Part shown: piece after piece, positions 13,855-32,413 of the stretch | Layout of the letters: the number at the start of each line of letters is the position of its first letter | Position numbering within the stretch: position 1 is the stretch's first letter | Program-made: the position numbers and the translations under genes | Assembly: GCA_944336125.1 (NCBI GenBank) | Contig: CALVLA010000001.1 | Span: 1 to 32,413, forward strand | Direction of reading: 5' to 3' | Length of the DNA stretch: 32,413 bases | From: an uncultured Clostridia bacterium | Lineage (GTDB): Bacteria; Bacillota; Clostridia; Christensenellales; CAG-314 | Notes under the pieces: generated by a model | Told to the model about the DNA's origin: nothing | The model's database searches: none | The model's input: only the letters and a program-made list of their open reading frames with translations

Positions 13855-14163
13855 TCAGCCAACGGAAATTTCCGTAACTTTCACTCTAGTGAACGGCTGT
13901 CTGTGACCTTGTTTTTTGCGGATGTTCTTTTTAGCTTTGTACTTAAAAACAACGATTTTGTCCGCTTTGCCGTGAGCTACTACTTCAGCTTTAACAGAAA
14001 CTTTGTCAGCTTTTTTGCCGGTCAAAATTTTGTCGCCGTCAGCACACATAATGCATTTAAGGTCAACGGCGGAACCGATTTCGGCTTTGTTGTACTCGAT
14101 TTCGAGGACATTGTCCTTTTCGACTTTGTACTGTTTGCCACCGTTTTCAACAATTGCGTACAT
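13855..14163 (-). CDS. rplU: 50S ribosomal protein L21
   Basis: 102 residues, full length. MYAIVENGGKQYKVEKDN at the start and KAKKNIRKKQGHRQPFTRVKV near the end are diagnostic for L21, which binds 23S rRNA. First gene of the operon; AGGAGGT precedes the ATG. Probably autoregulated through its leader. Confidence 0.98.
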   Translation of the reverse strand: MYAIVENGGKQYKVEKDNVLEIEYNKAEIGSAVDLKCIMCADGDKILTGKKADKVSVKAEVVAHGKADKIVVFKYKAKKNIRKKQGHRQPFTRVKVTEISVG

Positions 14164-14237
14164 GAATTTTTACCTCCTCTTCCCAGTCTCGCTATCGGGG
14201 TGGCGCAAGGCACTTAGTTACCCTTACTATGCGGCTC
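14164..14237 (-). ncRNA. Putative L21 leader in the rplU mRNA
   Basis: About 74 bases lie between the expected transcription start and the rplU ATG. The leader has GC-rich complementary segments (for example TTGCGCCACCCC and GCGAGACTGGG) just before the AGGAGGT ribosome site. Length, place and the GCGAGACTGGG...GAGGAGGT ending resemble the L21 leader motif found upstream of rplU in Firmicutes, where it is thought to bind the ribosomal protein. I assign this by position and remembered pattern, not by a covariance search. Confidence 0.5.
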
Positions 14238-23071: not shown

Positions 23072-23080
23072 TATTGAAAA

Positions 23081-23098
23081 TTAGCACCTTGGTGCTAA
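23081..23098. promoter_or_regulatory. 18-base palindrome, probable operator
   Basis: TTAGCACC-TT-GGTGCTAA has perfect eight-base arms. It lies just after the expected transcription start of the lipoprotein gene and 15 bases before its ATG, a classic repressor position; alternatively it forms a 5' stem-loop in the mRNA. Confidence 0.65.
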
Positions 23099-23112
23099 CC
23101 ACGGAGGAACAA

Positions 23113-24657
23113 ATGAAAATTTTACGAAAGCGGCTTTTTATGGTTTTTTTGTTGTTGCTGACGTTCAGCCTGACGTTTTTGCTTTTCGGTTGCGAAAATC
23201 CGCCGGGAAAAGACGAGGAAATTCCTGTGGAGGGCAAGTTTGAGCTTAACGGACATTCAATAGTCGACAACCTCATGGTGTTTGACGGCTACATTCAGTT
23301 TTACCCTGCCGGGAATTTCAAGGTCTATCTTGCCTACATAGATATTTACCACACGGAATATGGCACAAAAACATTTTTTGCTACAGGTCGCTACGCTTAT
23401 TTCGGCGAAGGTATCATAGGCGTGGTTTTTGACAACCAAAGCACTGACACCATCAAATACTTTGAATATTATCGTTCATACATCAATTGCGCTTGGGGAA
23501 AATTTGACCGCACCAGCGGCAAGGATTATGAAGACACAGATGACGGAAACGGAGACAACACCGGCGGCACAGATGACAGTCAAGGCGGCGACTCAGAGGA
23601 CACAATCACCTACACCGTCACGCTTGACTACCAAATCGAAGGCATGCCGCCATCCGCCCAACAGGTAAACTCAAACTCTGTTTTCAATTTGCCGACTCCT
23701 TCACAGCGCGAAGGCTACGAATTTGTTGGTTGGGCTTACGACTCCCCGTACAACGAGGTCATTGACTCCGCATCCGTCACAATCACCCAAAATACCAATC
23801 TCTTTGCGGTGTGGCAGGTCGTCACTTACACGGTGACCTACAACCTTGATGTAGGCTCACTGCCTGACAACGCTCCTTTGACTTTTGACATCAACTCCGT
23901 CGGCAACTTCGTGCTGCCCGTGCCGCATGACGAAACACTGTCGTTTTGCTACTGGGCTTCAGATGCGGAAGGCAAAAACAAGGTGGACAAAATCACCCAA
24001 CTCAAAAACTATCAACTGTTTGCCGTGTGGGAAAAAGCCGAGGACGCAATGACTTTTGTTTTTGATGTCGAAACAAACGGCTATCGTCTGACGGATTACA
24101 GCGGCAACGCCGCCAATGTCACAGTCCCCTCTACTTACAAAAACATGCCAGTCACAATCATCGGTGACGGCGCATTTATAGACTGCTCATCGCTTCAAAG
24201 CGTTGTCATTCCCGAAGGCGTGACAGCAATCTACGGCAGCGCATTTTCCGGTTGCTCATCCCTTCAAAGCGTTGTCATTCCCGAAGGCGTGACGGAAATC
24301 GACAACAGCGCATTTTACGGATGCTCGTCCCTTCAAAGCGTTGTCATCCCGGAAAGCGTGACAGCAATCTACGGCAGCGCATTTTCCGGTTGCCGGTCCC
24401 TTCAAAGCGTTGTCATTCCCGAAAGCGTGACAACCATCAGCAGAGACGCATTTTCCGGCTGCGACATTGACGAATTGTTTGTCCTCAGTGGCGAAATCGC
24501 AAATTCCATCGACGGTTATTTCGAGGGGATCGACAATGCGACGCTTTACGTCAAAGCCGACATCGCGCTGAGCAACGCTTACATCGACTTTGTCTATCAA
24601 AAAAACGACTCCGTCATCGTTGACGGTACTCGCTACGACGTTTATTCAAAAAAATGA
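23113..24657 (+). CDS. Surface lipoprotein with InlB-type repeats and BspA-type leucine-rich repeats
   Basis: 514 residues. Basic N-terminus, hydrophobic stretch and lipobox LLFGC give a type II signal with lipid-anchored C27. A unique domain (about 28-140) is followed by an Asp/Gly/Thr-rich linker (about 140-165), two Listeria-Bacteroides (InlB B-type) repeats starting YTVTLDY and YTVTYNL and ending in LFAVW, and a BspA-type LRR region (about 335-470) of 23-residue units with SLQSVVIPEGVT and AFxGC. Such proteins bind host or polymer surfaces; the ligand is unknown. GGAGG precedes the ATG at 23113. Four of the LRR units are nearly identical in DNA. Confidence 0.9.
   Translation: MKILRKRLFMVFLLLLTFSLTFLLFGCENPPGKDEEIPVEGKFELNGHSIVDNLMVFDGYIQFYPAGNFKVYLAYIDIYHTEYGTKTFFATGRYAYFGEGIIGVVFDNQSTDTIKYFEYYRSYINCAWGKFDRTSGKDYEDTDDGNGDNTGGTDDSQGGDSEDTITYTVTLDYQIEGMPPSAQQVNSNSVFNLPTPSQREGYEFVGWAYDSPYNEVIDSASVTITQNTNLFAVWQVVTYTVTYNLDVGSLPDNAPLTFDINSVGNFVLPVPHDETLSFCYWASDAEGKNKVDKITQLKNYQLFAVWEKAEDAMTFVFDVETNGYRLTDYSGNAANVTVPSTYKNMPVTIIGDGAFIDCSSLQSVVIPEGVTAIYGSAFSGCSSLQSVVIPEGVTEIDNSAFYGCSSLQSVVIPESVTAIYGSAFSGCRSLQSVVIPESVTTISRDAFSGCDIDELFVLSGEIANSIDGYFEGIDNATLYVKADIALSNAYIDFVYQKNDSVIVDGTRYDVYSKK
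24190..24465 (+). repeat. Four tandem 69-base repeats in the LRR region
   Basis: Units begin at 24190, 24259, 24328 and 24397, each with CTTCAAAGCGTTGTCAT near the start and GCATTTT near the end. The period of 69 bases equals one 23-residue LRR unit. Units one and three share long identical stretches, indicating recent duplication or gene conversion. Confidence 0.9.
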
Positions 24658-25873: not shown

Positions 25874-27217
25874 TTACTCGTCAATCTTTTTAAGCACAAC
25901 CAACGTCTCAACGTTGTCTGTCTGCGGAAACATATCGTACGGCGTACAATGCTTTATTTCATAAACTTTTGAAAGCGCTTTTATGTCGCGGGATAAAGTC
26001 GCGCTGTCGCAGCTGATGTAAACTATGTTTTGAGGTTTGGCCTGCAAAATTGCTTCTATAGTAGGCTGTCCCAGTCCTTTTCGCGGAGGATCCACCACCA
26101 AAGCTATTTTTTTGCCGCTGTTTTTTTCGCAAAGGTTTTTCAGTTCAACGTTTACGTCGCCGCATATGTTTATGAGATTTTTCAAGTTGTTGATTTTTTT
26201 AAGGTTGTCGGCGTCCTCCACCGCGGCTTTGACGATTTCGATGCCGAAAACCTGTTTTCCACTTTTGCACAAAACGCCGCTTAAAATTCCCACGCCCGAA
26301 AAAGCGTCAACGATTATGTCGCAGTCGCTTGTGTCCAAAAGACTTATGGCGTCGGCATAAATTTTGTCGCGGATAAAATCGTTGATTTGAAAAAAGCTGT
26401 CGGGCTGCAAACAAAATTTAACGCCAAGGCAATCACCTTGTATGTGTTTCAACCCACAAAGATGCAAGGTTTTGTTTCCCAAAATGACGTTGTCGTGTTT
26501 TTTGTTTATGTTGACAAAAAGTCCGTATCTGTCGAAATTTTCGTCGAGTTTTTGCTTCAATTTTTGCCACAACGTCAGTTCGTCGCCGTTTATCACAACC
26601 GTCAAAAGCAGCTGATTTTCCACATACCGTGCGACAACGTGTCTGACAAGTCCCGTCTTTTTAACTTCGTCATAAACCGCGATGTCGTTTTCATTGACAA
26701 AATCCACAACGCACTTCAAAACTTTGTCCGCCCACTCGTCCTGCAACGGGCAATGTGTCACAGGAACAAGTTTGTGCGAGCCTGACTGAAAAAAGCCGCA
26801 AACGGCTTTTGACCCGATTTTTCTCACGGGAATTTGCAGCTTGTTGCGGTATCCGAAAGACTTATCCGACGGCACGCACTCATTGACGTCAAAGTCCACA
26901 CCGCCTATTTTTTTAAGGTTTTTTTTGACTTTTTCCCTTTTAAAACTCACCTGTGCGCAGTAGTTCATATGTTGAAGCTGACATCCGCCGCACAAAGTAA
27001 AGTTTTTGCAAGCCGCCTGACATCTTCCGTTTACCGATTTTACGATTTTTTCGAGCTTAGCCTGAGCCACGTTTCCTTTTTTAAAAGTTACCGTTGCCTC
27101 GACTTCCTCTTTTGGTAAACAAAAGGGCACAAAGTAAGTCACGCCGTCTTTGTTTGCGACGCCCTCGCCGTTTGTGCCGATGTCGTTTATCAAAAGTTTG
27201 ATTTTTTCGTTTTTCAT
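25874..27217 (-). CDS. rlmD: 23S rRNA (uracil-5-)-methyltransferase, RlmD/TrmA family
   Basis: SAM-dependent RNA methyltransferase forming 5-methyluridine. 447 residues. N-terminal TRAM-type RNA-binding domain (about 1-55); iron-sulphur cluster cysteines C-x5-C-x2-C in CKNFTLCGGC plus one in THCPLQ; SAM motif DAFSGVGILSG; DPPRKGL; and catalytic cysteine in VYISCDSATLSRD. Whether the target is U1939, U747 or a tRNA cannot be told from sequence alone. Start overlaps the proA stop by four bases (ATGA), making it the last gene of the dnaE operon. No convincing terminator follows in the roughly 60 bases before the next promoter. Confidence 0.9.
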   Translation of the reverse strand: MKNEKIKLLINDIGTNGEGVANKDGVTYFVPFCLPKEEVEATVTFKKGNVAQAKLEKIVKSVNGRCQAACKNFTLCGGCQLQHMNYCAQVSFKREKVKKNLKKIGGVDFDVNECVPSDKSFGYRNKLQIPVRKIGSKAVCGFFQSGSHKLVPVTHCPLQDEWADKVLKCVVDFVNENDIAVYDEVKKTGLVRHVVARYVENQLLLTVVINGDELTLWQKLKQKLDENFDRYGLFVNINKKHDNVILGNKTLHLCGLKHIQGDCLGVKFCLQPDSFFQINDFIRDKIYADAISLLDTSDCDIIVDAFSGVGILSGVLCKSGKQVFGIEIVKAAVEDADNLKKINNLKNLINICGDVNVELKNLCEKNSGKKIALVVDPPRKGLGQPTIEAILQAKPQNIVYISCDSATLSRDIKALSKVYEIKHCTPYDMFPQTDNVETLVVLKKIDE

Positions 27218-28473
27218 TTGCGAATTTGTCCGTTTCCGAGAATTCTGTACTTCACCGTGTAAAGTTCTCTCAGCCCCATAGGTCCTCTTGCGTGAAGTTT
27301 TTGAGTGCTTATACCGATTTCCGCGCCCATACCGAACTCAAAACCGTCGGAAAACCTGATTGACGAATTTACGTAAACAGCGGCGCTGTCAACACACTTT
27401 AAAAACTTTTCCGCGGCATCGTTGTCTGTTGTGATAATAGCCTCGGAATGTTTTGTCGAGTGGTTTTCAATCCAGTCCAAAGCCTCGTCAATTCCACCCA
27501 CCACTTTTACCGACATTATGAGGTCGTTGTATTCCTTGTCCCAGTCCTCGTCTATTGCCTGTTTAATCCTTTTGTCCGCTTTTTGACTAAGCTCGTCACC
27601 TCTGACTTCGACTTTGTCCTCAGTCATTTTGTCAAGTAGCTTAGGCAAAAACTCATTTGCGATTTCACTGTCCACGAGGATTTTTTCCACCGAGTTACAA
27701 GCAGAAGGTTTTTGAATTTTTGCGTTTTCGATAATATTAACCGCCATATCGAAGTCGGCTGTTTTTTCAACATAAATGTGACAGTTGCCCGCCCCCGTCT
27801 GTATAACGGGAACCGTCGCGTTTTTGGTTACGGAGTTGATAAGTCCCGCGCTTCCGCGAGGTATGAGCAAATCGACGTAGGCGTTAAGCCTCATAAGACC
27901 GTTTGCGATTTCTCTGTCGGTGTTGTCGATTAGCTGCACGGCATTTTTGTCGATACCCGCTTTTTCCAAAGCTTCGGAAACATAACCCGAAAGCAAAAGA
28001 TTTGTGTTTATCGCTTCGCTGCCGCCCCTTAAAATACATACGTTTCCGCTTTTGATGCAAAGCCCCGCCGCGTCGACGGTAACGTTTGGACGCGACTCGT
28101 AAATAATTGCGATTACCCCGAGCGGAACGAGGATTTTTTCGATGACAAGCCCGTCCTCGCGTTTGTAAACGCTTTCGACCTTGTTGCAGTACTCGTCAAG
28201 CTCAACCAGCTGAAAAAGACCTTTCGTCATGTCATGAATACGCTTTTCGTTTAAGACAAGCCTGTCCACCATTGAGGATGAAAGTCCTTTTTCCTTTGCG
28301 TTTTTGACGTCAATTTCGTTAACGCGATAAATTTCGTTTTTGTTTTCCTCGATAATTTGCGCAAGAAAAATCAAAGCGTCGTTTCTTTGCTTAACCGAAG
28401 AGTTTGCTATTGACGTTACGGCTTTTTTTGCCTTTTTGCCGTAACCTGAAAGATAGCTGTTTACGTCAATCAT
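27214..28473 (-). CDS. proA: Gamma-glutamyl phosphate reductase
   Basis: Second step of proline synthesis: reduces gamma-glutamyl phosphate with NADPH to glutamate semialdehyde. 419 residues, full length, aldehyde-dehydrogenase fold. Catalytic cysteine lies in KPSACNSVEK; ESRPNVTVDAAGLCIKSGN and SIRFSDGFEFGMGAEIGISTQKLHARGPMGL are family signatures. Overlaps proB upstream and rlmD downstream by four bases each, so it is translationally coupled on both sides. proC is not in the window. Confidence 0.97.
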   Translation of the reverse strand: MIDVNSYLSGYGKKAKKAVTSIANSSVKQRNDALIFLAQIIEENKNEIYRVNEIDVKNAKEKGLSSSMVDRLVLNEKRIHDMTKGLFQLVELDEYCNKVESVYKREDGLVIEKILVPLGVIAIIYESRPNVTVDAAGLCIKSGNVCILRGGSEAINTNLLLSGYVSEALEKAGIDKNAVQLIDNTDREIANGLMRLNAYVDLLIPRGSAGLINSVTKNATVPVIQTGAGNCHIYVEKTADFDMAVNIIENAKIQKPSACNSVEKILVDSEIANEFLPKLLDKMTEDKVEVRGDELSQKADKRIKQAIDEDWDKEYNDLIMSVKVVGGIDEALDWIENHSTKHSEAIITTDNDAAEKFLKCVDSAAVYVNSSIRFSDGFEFGMGAEIGISTQKLHARGPMGLRELYTVKYRILGNGQIRK

Positions 28474-29267
28474 TTTTTAATCCCCTGAAAAAACGTGCCG
28501 ACATTTTTGCCTTCGAGAATATCGTAAATCACGTTGACATTGGTTGCGTTTGCCACAACAGCGTCAATACCGTTAAGCGCCGCTTCCGTGCATGCCGAAA
28601 TTTTGGTTACTATGCCGCCGGTGCCAAGCGTACTCGGCTTTGCCGATTTGTCGTAACTGAGTTCCTTTGTCGGGTCTGCCGCCGAAATAAGCTTTGCGTC
28701 GGGATTTGTTTTAGGGTCTTTGTCAAACACGCCGTCGATGTCGGACAAAAGAATAAGCAAATCGGCGTGAACAAGCCTTGCGACAAGTGACGAAAGGTGA
28801 TCGTTGTCGCCGAATTTAATTTCCTCTACCGAAATGGAGTCGTTTTCGTTGACGACGGGAATAACGTTGTATTTGAGCATTTCGTCAACGGCGTTTTGAA
28901 AGTTCTTTTTGCGTTCCTCGTTGTCAAAAACATCTTTTGTCAAAAGCAGCTGTCCCGCGTTGTAGCCATAATCGGCAAAGCACTTGTTGTAAATTTCCAT
29001 AAGAGCCGACTGACCCACGCAGGCCATAGCCTGTCTGCCGCTGACGTATGAAGGTTTTTGCGGAAGATGAAGCCTGCTGACGCCTGCGGCAATAGCGCCG
29101 GAGGAAACAAGCAAAACTTCCTTGCCCTGATTTTTAAGGTCACACAAATCGCGTGAAAGCCTGTCTATGCGGTGAAGATTGAGCTTCCCGCTTTCGTGCG
29201 TAAGCGATGAGGTGCCGATTTTAACTACGATACGGTGAACGTTTTGAAAATTTCTTGGCATTGTCAT
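28470..29267 (-). CDS. proB: Glutamate 5-kinase, short form without PUA domain
   Basis: First step of proline synthesis: ATP-dependent phosphorylation of glutamate. 265 residues cover the amino-acid kinase domain (VVKIGTSSLT at the start; SSGAIAAG; NENDSIS; GTGGIVTKISA). The C-terminal PUA domain present in the roughly 370-residue E. coli enzyme is absent; short forms occur in other bacteria. The ATG overlaps the mtrB stop as ATGA with a weak ribosome site, so its translation likely depends on mtrB translation. An ATG two codons later is the alternative start. Confidence 0.96.
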   Translation of the reverse strand: MTMPRNFQNVHRIVVKIGTSSLTHESGKLNLHRIDRLSRDLCDLKNQGKEVLLVSSGAIAAGVSRLHLPQKPSYVSGRQAMACVGQSALMEIYNKCFADYGYNAGQLLLTKDVFDNEERKKNFQNAVDEMLKYNVIPVVNENDSISVEEIKFGDNDHLSSLVARLVHADLLILLSDIDGVFDKDPKTNPDAKLISAADPTKELSYDKSAKPSTLGTGGIVTKISACTEAALNGIDAVVANATNVNVIYDILEGKNVGTFFQGIKK

Positions 29268-29488
29268 TTTTCTGCTTTAACCATACCGAATTTGGTATAG
29301 ACCTCCGCATTTCCCCTGACTTTCACGGCAGAAGTTTTTTCGGTAAACTGTACGATAAGCACTTCGCCCTTGTCCAGCATTTCGGTGTGGTGGCTTTTTG
29401 TTTCGTCACCGCGAGTAAGACCTATAATCTGCGTGCCGTTTTGCAGAGCTTTAATGCAGACATAATCGTTTTGCAAATTGTTGTCCAT
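29264..29488 (-). CDS. mtrB: Trp RNA-binding attenuation protein (TRAP)
   Basis: 74 residues that align without gaps to B. subtilis TRAP, an 11-subunit ring that binds tryptophan and then wraps RNA with repeated GAG/UAG triplets to stop trp gene expression. Identical stretches include IGLTRG (22-27), LDKGEV (38-43), QFTE (47-50) and KVRG (56-59). The loops that hold tryptophan (about 25-33 and 47-53) are conserved. Of the RNA-contact residues, E36, K56 and R58 are present but Lys37 is Met. AGAGGTG precedes the ATG; it starts three bases past dnaE and overlaps proB by four. No anti-TRAP, folE or trp gene is in view. Confidence 0.93.
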   Translation of the reverse strand: MDNNLQNDYVCIKALQNGTQIIGLTRGDETKSHHTEMLDKGEVLIVQFTEKTSAVKVRGNAEVYTKFGMVKAEK

Positions 29489-29491
29489 ATT

Positions 29492-32413
29492 TCACCTCTC
29501 GACGAGTTTGACGTTTGGTTCGCCAAGCAAATCGTAAAGCTCAAAGAAAAGAGCCTTGCAGTTTCTGACGGAAATTCCTGCGGAAAAAGGTTTGCCGCCG
29601 ATTACCGCGACAACTGGGATATCCCCCGCATAGCTTTCCAAAACCGAATAAACTTCGTCGTATTTGTTTTTATCCTCAAATTTTAAGTAAAGGGTAGTTT
29701 TCTTTTTAGGCTGCTGAACTTCTTGAAACACCAGTTCCGAAAGGCTGTCAACCTTAATCTTAGGCGGTCTGCCGTTTTCCACCACTAGAGTGCCTTTTAC
29801 CGTTACCATCGAGTCGTTCACCAGCTTGTCCCTCAGTTTTTCATAAAGTCTGGGAATAACCACCAGTTCCACCGAGCCGTAAAGGTCTTCGAGTTTTGCC
29901 GTAACCATAGTGGTGTTTGACTTTGTGATGCGTTTTTGAACGTCGTAAAGAATACCGCCCGCAGACACTTTTTTGTCGTTAAGCTCGGACAAGTCGTATG
30001 AGCCGTACTCTTCCTCATCCTCACTTTCGGCAACGTTGAGCATCCCCGTATTGAAGGAAAATCCCTTCATTTTGTCGGCATACGCGTCAAGCGGATGCCC
30101 CGTTACGTAAAGCCCCAAAACTTCTTTTTCCAAATCGAACTTGTGTTTCGAGTCGTACTCGTCGATTTTAGGAAGAGGAACTTTGACCGTTTTGTTTTCC
30201 CCTCCCATAAGGTCGAAGAGTGAAAACTGACCGCTTTCCTTGTGCTTTTTGTCGGCGGCTGCGATTTCCATCATTTTTTCGTATGTCGCCATAAGCTGAG
30301 AGCGGTAAGCGCCGAAAGAGTCGAACACCCCTGCTTTAATCATGCTTTCGACGGCGCGTTTGTTGAGCGTCGAGGACGGAAGCCTTGACAGCAAATCTTC
30401 GAGTCCCGTGTATTTTCCGTTTTTGTTTCTTTCGGCTACAATTGTCTGCAAAGCGCTTTCGCCGACGTTTTTAATAGCCATAAGGCCGAAACGTATGTCG
30501 TCGCCTTTAACGGAAAAGCCCACTTCGCTTTCGTTGATGTCAGGCGGAAGCACGTTGATGTTTCTGTCTTTGCAGTAACGGATGTATTTGGTAACTTCGT
30601 CTATGTTGTCGATACGGTTGTTAAGAACCGCCGCAAGAAACTCAATGGGGTAATATTTTTTGAGAAAAGCCGTTTGGTAAGCGACTACGGCATAGCACGC
30701 CGCGTGAGATTTATTGAAGGCGTATGACGCGAAACTTGCCATTTCGTTGAATATGCTTTCCGCAACGCTTTCGTCAATGCCCCTTGCCACCGCGCCTTCG
30801 ATGATAACCTTGCCGTTTTCGTCCTTTTGTCCGTGAATAAAGTACTCCTTGTGCTTTGTCATTTCGGAGGCTTTTTTCTTGGACATAACGCGCCTTATGA
30901 TGTCGGCCTGACCGAGGCTGTAACCTGCTATGTCCTGAACGATTTTCATAACCTGTTCCTGATAGACCATGCAGCCGTAAGTAACGTCAAGAGTTGATTT
31001 CAAAAGCGGATGTTTGTATTTTACCTTGTCGGGATTGTTTTTTCCGTCGATGTAGTCGTCGATAGACGCCATAGGACCGGGGCGGAAAAGCGAAATACCC
31101 GCGATGATGTCTTCGAGAGAGTTTGGCAAAAGCCTTGTCATGAGCTTTTTCATGCCGGGACTTTCAAGTTGGAACACCGCGTCAGTGTCCCCCGACGAAA
31201 TAAGCTCGAACACCTTAGGATCGTCGTAAGTTTCCCTGTCGAAGGAAATGTCGATACCTCTGTTTTGTTTGATAAGCTCGATTGCTTTTGCAATATCGGT
31301 GAGAGTCCTGAGTCCCAAAAAGTCCATTTTGAGCATACCCAGTTCTTCCACTTCGGTTTTGTCGTATTGAGTAGTGATGTCCTCGCCGTTTCGCTGGAGA
31401 GGTACGTGGTCTGAAATGTCGTAGCGGCAGATAACGACGCCGGCGGCATGCTTGGAGGTATTTTTAGGCATGCCTTCGAGTTGCATGGCGATGTCCACCA
31501 CACGCTGCATCTGCAAATCGCTTTGATAAATTTCTTTAAGTTCCGGGTCAGGTTCCGGATAGTCCTTTTTCGGAGGAACGAAACCAAACTCCATAGGAAT
31601 GTTGCAGGCAAGGTTTGAGGTCATGAGCTTTGTGACCCTGTCGCGCTCGCTGTAAGGCACGTTAAGCACCCTGCCCACGTCCTTGATGGCGTTTTTGGCT
31701 TTGAGCGTACCGAAAGTTATGATTTGCGAAACCTTGCTTCTGCCGTATTTGTTTGTTACGTATTCAATGATTTCCTCACGCCTGTCGTCACGGAAGTCTA
31801 TGTCGAAGTCAGGCATGCTTACCCTTTCAGGGTTCAAAAATCTTTCGAAAAGCAAATTGAAGCGAAGCGGGTCGATGTTGGTTATGCCAATCGCGTAGGC
31901 TATGATACTGCCCGCGCCGCTGCCCCTGCCGGGACCTACGTTTACGCCTATGCTTTTTGCGTAATTGATGAAGTCCCAAACGATAAGGTAATATTCGACG
32001 AAACCCATTTTGCTTATGACGCCGAGTTCGTACTCCGCCCTTTCGCGGATTTCGTCGGTAACAACGTCGTAACGCTTTTTAAGCCCCTCTTCCATGAGAC
32101 CTCTCAAAAAGTCGTAAGGCGTCTGCCCGTTGTCGGGAACGTAGTTAGGAATAAGGTTTTCGCGGCAAATCTGCACGTCACACATTTCCGCAATTTTGAG
32201 AGTGTTGTCCAAAGCCTCGGGAACAAAGGAAAAAAGGCTTTCCATTTCGTCGCCGTTTTTTAGATAAAACTCGTCGGTGGAAAACTTAAGTCTGTTTTTG
32301 TCGTCGAGAGTTTTTTGCATCTGGATGCACATAAGTACGTCCTGAGCCTCGGCGTCCTTTTTTTCGATGTAATGAACGTCGTTTGTCGCGACAAGCGGAA
32401 TATTGAGTTCCCT
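29492..32413 (-). CDS. dnaE: DNA polymerase III alpha subunit, C-terminal part (cut by window edge)
   Basis: The frame runs off the right edge of the window; about 973 C-terminal residues are present and the N-terminal part of the PHP domain is missing. The first residues visible (LNIPLVATNDVHY) are the end of the PHP region. The polymerase core has PDFDIDF with its catalytic aspartates and the downstream fingers; helix-hairpin-helix and an OB-fold segment (about residues 790-870 of the visible part) precede a short C-terminal domain. This is the DnaE1 type, not PolC, as no exonuclease insertion is seen. First visible gene of the dnaE-mtrB-proB-proA-rlmD run. Confidence 0.97.
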   Translation of the reverse strand, partial: RELNIPLVATNDVHYIEKKDAEAQDVLMCIQMQKTLDDKNRLKFSTDEFYLKNGDEMESLFSFVPEALDNTLKIAEMCDVQICRENLIPNYVPDNGQTPYDFLRGLMEEGLKKRYDVVTDEIRERAEYELGVISKMGFVEYYLIVWDFINYAKSIGVNVGPGRGSGAGSIIAYAIGITNIDPLRFNLLFERFLNPERVSMPDFDIDFRDDRREEIIEYVTNKYGRSKVSQIITFGTLKAKNAIKDVGRVLNVPYSERDRVTKLMTSNLACNIPMEFGFVPPKKDYPEPDPELKEIYQSDLQMQRVVDIAMQLEGMPKNTSKHAAGVVICRYDISDHVPLQRNGEDITTQYDKTEVEELGMLKMDFLGLRTLTDIAKAIELIKQNRGIDISFDRETYDDPKVFELISSGDTDAVFQLESPGMKKLMTRLLPNSLEDIIAGISLFRPGPMASIDDYIDGKNNPDKVKYKHPLLKSTLDVTYGCMVYQEQVMKIVQDIAGYSLGQADIIRRVMSKKKASEMTKHKEYFIHGQKDENGKVIIEGAVARGIDESVAESIFNEMASFASYAFNKSHAACYAVVAYQTAFLKKYYPIEFLAAVLNNRIDNIDEVTKYIRYCKDRNINVLPPDINESEVGFSVKGDDIRFGLMAIKNVGESALQTIVAERNKNGKYTGLEDLLSRLPSSTLNKRAVESMIKAGVFDSFGAYRSQLMATYEKMMEIAAADKKHKESGQFSLFDLMGGENKTVKVPLPKIDEYDSKHKFDLEKEVLGLYVTGHPLDAYADKMKGFSFNTGMLNVAESEDEEEYGSYDLSELNDKKVSAGGILYDVQKRITKSNTTMVTAKLEDLYGSVELVVIPRLYEKLRDKLVNDSMVTVKGTLVVENGRPPKIKVDSLSELVFQEVQQPKKKTTLYLKFEDKNKYDEVYSVLESYAGDIPVVAVIGGKPFSAGISVRNCKALFFELYDLLGEPNVKLVER

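Follow-up and report, generated by a model that had tools for sequence, protein, structure and literature searches.

The window, that is the whole stretch of 32,413 nucleotides analysed here, belongs to a draft genome (G000; 1,237,826 bases, 94.58% complete) that we compared with three congeners, G001, G002 and G003; where four congeners are counted below, G000 is one of them. Near its end the minus strand shows the gene order dnaE-mtrB-proB-proA-rlmD. The mtrB gene (29264..29488) starts with ATG and encodes a TRAP homologue of 74 aa, which covers positions 2-69 of the 69 in the Pfam TrpBP profile (PF02081; E 9.2e-35, 118.8 bits against a cut-off of 21.3) and matches solved TRAP structures in the PDB with E down to 7e-43. 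On its upstream side dnaE (DNA polymerase III alpha; Pfam DNA_pol3_alpha, 331 bits) occupies 29492..32413, with its 5' part lying past the window end in a frame that reaches about G000:C1:32989 (1165 aa at locus L015); 3 bases separate its end at 29492 from mtrB. On the other side proB (glutamate 5-kinase, 28470..29267; AA_kinase PF00696, 168.9 bits) starts at 29267 and overlaps mtrB by 4 bases, and is followed by proA (glutamate-5-semialdehyde dehydrogenase, 27214..28473; Aldedh PF00171, 76.5 bits), whose position is kept in the congeners, and by a gene for an rlmD-like RNA uracil methyltransferase (25874..27217; PF05958, 73.4 bits), whose position is kept in G001, G002 and G003. The ORF calls and the PF02081 match confirm an earlier note, which had described a full-length TRAP ORF set between dnaE and proB with just such a gap and overlap. 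Its statement that the window has no trp or folE genes also holds, as neither family occurs among the 31 proteins scanned with Pfam, namely TRAP and 30 of the 31 chosen ORFs of at least 90 aa (13903-14217 was left out). Rfam models at their gathering scores gave zero matches across the window. TRAP, the tryptophan RNA-binding attenuation protein, forms rings of 11 or 12 subunits that bind RNA in a Trp-dependent way. To our knowledge it is known mainly from Bacillus, where it is a textbook case of RNA-based control and where mtrB sits with folE. The window also encodes, on the plus strand at 23074-24657, a BspA-type leucine-rich repeat protein with a Listeria-Bacteroides repeat.

An alignment showed TRAP to be intact and similar in all four congeners. 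At the positions of K37, K56 and R58, which we take to be the RNA-contacting residues of TRAP, the window protein has K, K and R (in the motifs LDKGE and VKVRG). All four congeners retain the three residues; among the 33 aligned TRAP proteins, many have another residue in place of K37. At position 32, to which we presume a role in TRAP, the 3zte protein has F, as do 12 of the 33; the residue is S in G087 and the congeners, P in the six aligned proteins of genus g74 and in G043 and G054, and L in others. The lineages with S, P or L include ones with NAG-rich arrays and leader peptides (see below), and these changes offer a lead on a possibly altered RNA specificity.

The TRAP family was detected in 14 of 61 relatives and, across the order, in 41 of 396 genomes; within the family of G000 it is present in 4/4 congeners and in 0/33 others. 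For the comparison of neighbourhoods a set of 41 TRAP-positive genomes was used, from which G323 (22 bits inside a 742-codon frame) had been dropped and to which G003 had been added from the search of 61 relatives. In this set dnaE is the same-strand upstream neighbour of mtrB in 34 genomes (homology-edge distance up to 419 nt) and pfkA the same-strand downstream neighbour in 31 (up to 279 nt), pfkA being identified by the NCBIfam phosphofructokinase model in two genomes and by matches to that protein in the remaining ones. One or both of these genes flank mtrB in 41/41. A contig end truncates one side of mtrB in G042, G060 and G082, and there was no dnaE match near mtrB in G043, G072, G070, G176 and G332, where 1.5 kb or more of flank was covered. 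proB adjoins mtrB in all four congeners and is absent beside it in the other 37 genomes. The habitat of TRAP in this order is a conserved dnaE-pfkA setting, and proBA represents a swap at the level of the genus. The coupling to proline synthesis that had been read from the window is therefore not borne out, given that proB is a neighbour only in this genus while dnaE or pfkA flanks mtrB throughout. On the refuting condition that the earlier note had set for relatives, the location of mtrB proved to be non-random, but its conserved partners are dnaE and pfkA rather than proBA. For mtrB, dnaE and proBA would be no more than host genes.

In none of the four congeners does the dnaE leader or the mtrB region hold a triplet array above background (337-499 of 500 shuffled versions scored as well), so that the absence of triplet runs noted earlier for the window holds for these regions under a shuffle test. 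Across the whole G000 genome, four-triplet patterns with one mismatch allowed gave 16 hits versus 26 for the reversed control, and those without a mismatch gave 2 versus 3 and 1 versus 2. Of 15 places inspected among the G000 hits (three more hits overlap these), 13 lie in or antisense to frames of at least 80 aa; L040 (C2:159338) is situated between frames of this kind, and L046 was viewed off-register. A five-triplet pattern gave zero hits in the four congeners, and a sequence-profile model found nothing in G000, G002 and G003 and a match with E 0.5 in G001, in a search of 66 genomes and hence with stricter filters. These whole-genome pattern and model scans missed the array in G000 to which we now turn.

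trpE (PF04715) had no match in the G000 draft or in the other three congeners, and was matched in 14/14 control genomes. G000 has a solitary trpB-like gene (TIGR01415) at G000:C4:90568-91929 on the minus strand, scoring 612 bits against 590 in G001 and 617 in G002 (cut-off 518.85); in G003, which is TRAP-positive and 94% complete, no trpB-like gene was found. Within the family, a trpB-like gene above the cut-off is thus seen in 3/4 TRAP-positive congeners versus 0/11 TRAP-negative genomes examined, three of which have a weaker TrpB match. The closest named relative of the G000 protein, at 84% identity, is from Candidatus Heteroclostridium caecigallinarum (a chicken MAG; Clostridia incertae sedis), and the trpB-like leaders of G002 and that organism look identical.

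Read along the minus strand, the leader of the G000 gene begins with a -35 element TTGACA (C4:92133) and a -10 element TAAGAT (end C4:92105), followed by a 5' hairpin, ACAAACC-loop-GGTTTGT, which lies between the -10 element and an array of seven NAG triplets, CAGttTAGtttTAGttCAGaaTAGttAAGagGAG (C4:92069-92036; 0 of 5000 shuffles as good). An ATG at C4:92030 opens the leader-peptide frame MRKFSVFWRCF, closed by a stop codon, and its Shine-Dalgarno sequence AAGAGGAG is the last part of the array. 3' of the array, and overlapped by the leader frame, is a predicted terminator, GGCGATGC-TTTTGAC-GCACCGCC, with one mismatch and then TTTTTT; the trpB-like ATG is at C4:91929. The consensus terminator scan did not list this hairpin, which has a mismatch. 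The same layout is common to G001 and G002, with the leader peptides MKYSVYWRCFFGIAF and MERLCLFWRCSGVAFFVF, each ending in a stop codon, and in both of these the frame spans the entire hairpin. The G002 leader has nine triplets, equalled by 0 of 5000 shuffles, and that of G001 four in register, equalled by 9 of 5000. With four GAG/TAG among its seven triplets the G000 array is a weak one when measured against Bacillus, and short of an RNA target of about 9-11 (G/U)AG at a spacing of 2-3; arrays with 8-10 (G/U)AG exist in other families. As a background we scanned 4936 windows of 300 nt on both strands of eight stretches of congener DNA, about 125 kb in all with an overlap between two stretches, using an array score whose triplet weights were hand-set after viewing arrays of other families. 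All 17 windows scoring at least 14.1, just below the G001 score, lay in the three trpB-like leaders, and the next best of the 4936 scored 12.8. A T-box (RF00230) search of these three leaders (L155, L154, L161) gave no match at E up to 1. A TrpX-like transporter gene was considered as a target in the genus and rejected, being present in G001 and G003 only, with leaders that have no array. Of the possibilities raised by the earlier note, that of TRAP acting in trans on trp mRNA is the one supported, as in G000 the array precedes the trpB-like gene, on a contig other than that of mtrB, and recurs in G001 and G002.

Across the order, runs of five GAG/TAG at a spacing of 2-3 occurred in 3/14 TRAP-positive genomes, both runs of G037 being in or between coding frames, and in 11/54 further genomes, TRAP-positive and TRAP-negative alike (the latter including G011, G045 and G059), and a reversed-pattern control also matched several genomes. 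Long arrays precede trpE in G056 and G081, the trpB-like gene in G042 and G082, an NhaC-like gene in G042, a TrpX-like gene in G082 (NCBIfam 204.7 bits, below the cut-off of 390) and some genes without an obvious connection to tryptophan; arrays are also found before trpE in G040 and G054 and before TrpX-like genes in G037 and G332 (the latter by eye). The window itself has an Na+/H+ antiporter-family gene (PF03553; 16669-18018, minus strand), the family to be set beside the G042 gene with its upstream TRAP array, and no array-scan window in the contig stretch containing it scores above 12.6. Among the trpE leaders of five TRAP-positive genomes three have an array, that of G037 has a T-box motif and that of G057 neither; the trpE leaders of two TRAP-negative genomes have T-box motifs.

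The recurrent predicted target of TRAP in the order is the solitary trpB-like gene (TIGR01415). On the array score used for the congeners, its leader carries an array (shuffle P <= 0.05) in 21/27 TRAP-positive versus 0/8 TRAP-negative genomes, the smallest P among the latter being 0.075, in a count that ignores kinship and includes three congeners and seven genomes of genus g74. The six TRAP-positive exceptions are G373 (0.055) and G333 (0.070), both of which pass in a second run (0.030 and 0.043), G053, G195, and G156 and G180, which have T-box motifs. T-box motifs are likewise seen in 4/8 of the TRAP-negative trpB-like leaders (G052, G055, G038 and G045). In family f6, where the trpB-like gene is present in 40/46 genomes and 30 loci were analysed, the TRAP-negative G283 has one array (P 0.010). 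A leader of the g74 type, with an array at P 0.017, is found in G301, which has no TRAP match. The arrays of g74 are rich in AAG/CAG and are not significant in G195, G403, G404 and G406.

A short frame led by a Shine-Dalgarno sequence and holding one Trp codon follows the array in 12 leaders of g74, from 12 of the 13 g74 genomes with a match (the G341 gene is cut), and in G226 of family f6. Their peptides comprise eight of the MNSAYFTRW.. type, four that end in [YF][VI]FRW before the stop, and MFNNRRWRI with its stop. The other 17 leaders of f6 contain one Shine-Dalgarno-led Trp frame, MSWRTANGLLRAE in G216. In G172 and G236 the peptides MEILSKRWRHRMY and MYNGYSWRV, each followed by a stop codon, precede a conventional-looking trpB. 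One-Trp frames recur in 15 leaders of a second family, and in total there are 18 leaders with 13 distinct peptides from four genera and two families, characterized by a Shine-Dalgarno match of 5 of 6 and by a single Trp beside Arg; tandem Trp codons occur in none of the 18. As a control we took 80 other short Shine-Dalgarno-led frames from the same loci, leader peptides excluded and frames of the TRAP-negative G046 and G047 included; 24/80 hold Trp and 22/80 exactly one. The Trp excess in the leaders is real but moderate, because the 18 leaders amount to roughly six lineages. Codon changes within g74 preserve Asn and Ser, and such synonymous changes fit a coding function. One-Trp frames with RWR or DWR also precede the trpB-like gene in the TRAP-negative G046 (L172), G047 (L276) and G052 (L159), in the last after a T-box motif. 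The frame can therefore exist without TRAP, and the leader peptide may represent an older, independent regulator.

The g74 terminator hairpin has eight pairs, of which seven are standard in at least 11/12 sequences and one in 8/12; its consensus fold also shows a long-range helix that pairs with sequence past the terminator. We computed the probability of the terminator with parts of the leader masked in 17 leaders with hand-named hairpins, G236 being left out; an automatic hairpin search missed the terminator of G404 and returned weak hairpins in G113 and G403. With a ribosome footprint masked at the stop codon, terminator P falls to 0.17 or less in 16/17 leaders, the remaining one being G226 (0.96). 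With the leader masked from the Shine-Dalgarno sequence to UGG+12, P is at most 0.04 in 8/17 (the three congeners, the four leaders with a terminal FRW, and G405) and at least 0.92 in 9/17. In 10/17 leaders 19-22 nt separate the UGG from the hairpin downstream of it, and 9/10 of these leaders keep P at 0.92 or more under UGG masking, a modelled result that would speak against a simple sensor of tRNA charging in those nine. Masking the array raises terminator P in G000 (0.00 to 0.27), G002 (0.65 to 0.99), G325 (0.22 to 0.98), G113 (0.77 to 0.97) and G404 (0.58 to 0.84), lowers it in G373 (0.88 to 0.61) and G301 (0.90 to 0.83), and shifts it by at most 0.10 in the other ten, with no effect in G001. 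In the lowest-energy fold of G000 the 3' end of the array is paired with the 5' arm and loop of the terminator. The calculations fit a scheme in which TRAP would exclude ribosomes from the leader and ribosomes, where present, would prevent the terminator from closing; in the congeners a ribosome stalling on the Trp codon is predicted to lie directly over the hairpin. A classical antiterminator may add to the effect in G000 and G002.

We therefore consider it probable that TRAP acts in trans on the trpB-like gene, through an array placed over the Shine-Dalgarno sequence of a one-Trp frame and a predicted terminator. The sequences compared themselves show the TRAP protein and its synteny, the array with the peptide frame and the hairpin, and the association of array and TRAP across genomes. 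From these we infer the steps of RNA binding, tryptophan dependence, peptide translation, and termination and its sign. Under ample tryptophan, the array would be wrapped by Trp-bound TRAP, which would bar ribosomes from the leader peptide and, in G000 and G002, also break an alternative fold; in the ribosome-free leader the terminator would form and truncate the trpB-like mRNA. Under tryptophan shortage TRAP would release the array and the leader peptide would be translated, and a ribosome at the Trp codon or the stop codon would sit on the terminator, so that RNA polymerase could read through. A fuller version of this, which we put forward only tentatively and judge somewhat short of probable, is a two-signal attenuator. 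Here TRAP, responding to free tryptophan, would gate ribosome loading, and the single Trp codon at the base of the terminator would sense charged tRNA-Trp or the nascent chain; in several clostridial lineages the device would replace, before a stand-alone trpB-like gene, the T-box of TRAP-free relatives.

Three other explanations have to be set against the proposed action in trans. In classical TRAP attenuation the short frame would be incidental, and TRAP on the array would destroy an antiterminator that uses the 3' part of the array, allowing the terminator to form. The pairing of the array with the terminator in G000 and the rise of the terminator in five leaders on array masking are what this would predict, and in G056, G040, G082 and G037 the arrays are followed, by eye, by a hairpin and T-run without a one-Trp frame. 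However, array masking gives no such rise in G001 and most g74 leaders, and the recurrence of the frame in 18 leaders, with synonymous changes, and its presence in TRAP-negative genomes too, count against it; we regard this account as unlikely, though it is the one among the three to which we give most weight.

That TRAP is a vestige in a lineage lacking trpE, with the trpB-like leader run by the Trp peptide alone, is improbable. The unmatched trpE of the four congeners, the want of a canonical array in the G000 pattern scans, the one-Trp frames of TRAP-negative genomes and the case of G003, with TRAP and no trpB-like gene found, are all consistent with it, but the intact TRAP of all four congeners and the segregation of trpB-like arrays between TRAP-positive and TRAP-negative genomes argue against it. 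Regulation of its own operon or of proline synthesis, to which the earlier note had thought TRAP might have been recruited, we hold to be very improbable. The tight packing of dnaE, mtrB and proB in 4/4 congeners would suit it, yet none of the four has an array in the operon, its dnaE leader and mtrB region included, and outside the genus proB is not beside mtrB in any of the 37 TRAP-positive genomes.

The Bacillus trp leader has a 5' stem-loop. Eleven (G/U)AG repeats and a scheme of A/B antiterminator and C/D attenuator are described for Bacillus trp in parts of the source PMC3913778. The system proposed here resembles the action of B. subtilis TRAP (MtrB) on trpEDCFBA in its protein family, in triplets spaced by 2-3 nt before a predicted terminator and in the hairpin 5' of the array, but differs in its solitary trpB-like target, in the genus having no trpE match, in the placement of mtrB with dnaE, in its shorter NAG array and in the Shine-Dalgarno-led one-Trp frame between array and terminator. 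The leader peptide of anti-TRAP (rtpA/yczA) in B. subtilis has Trp codons. The feature shared with that system is a leader peptide within a TRAP circuit, the anti-TRAP one being reportedly the subject of Chen and Yanofsky in 2004 (a title listed in PMC4027176). There, however, the peptide and a T-box control the antagonist of TRAP, whereas here the frame lies in a putative TRAP target leader with its Shine-Dalgarno sequence inside the array, and the three congener leaders are without a T-box match. In E. coli trpL a short frame with tandem Trp codons precedes the terminator. Our leaders similarly have a short Trp-codon frame before a terminator, but with one Trp codon, a TRAP array over the Shine-Dalgarno sequence and, in the ten leaders mentioned above, a UGG well upstream of the hairpin. 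A literature search, thin on subscription journals, found nothing on TRAP with a leader peptide before trpB, nor on TRAP in this order.

TRAP is thus kept in clostridia without a detected trpE; its gene has a conserved dnaE-pfkA habitat, and its predicted regulon has a lone trpB-like gene at the centre. If the two-signal reading is true, free tryptophan, through TRAP, and the behaviour of the ribosome at a Trp codon would meet in one leader with no anti-TRAP relay, and one RNA would integrate both of the signals for which Bacillus needs TRAP, anti-TRAP and a T-box. The natural TRAP variants with S, P or L at position 32, some of them accompanied by NAG-rich arrays, could be used for tests of RNA specificity.

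Several arrays are of other kinds. Seven- and eight-triplet arrays at L104 (G080 C6) and L112 (G080 C42), one in a coding frame and one before an ABC transporter, have no evident link to tryptophan. At L090 (G156) an array in which 7/8 triplets are (G/U)AG overlaps the start of a gene for a PaaK-like ligase, next to an IorB-looking frame, and a TRAP link to aromatic amino acid catabolism is possible. Before a gene of G332 (L125) that looks TrpX-like by eye, a T-box-like motif with its T-run is followed or preceded in tandem by a GAG array that covers the start. In five trpB-like leaders (L145, L147, L148, L149 and L150, of G040, G082, G103, G138 and G056) there are two separated short GAG arrays, the second over the Shine-Dalgarno sequence of the gene, and in several of them a small hairpin (e.g. 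TGTTATT...AATAACA) was seen by eye between the two; such split arrays are perhaps a TRAP site with a looped-out hairpin.
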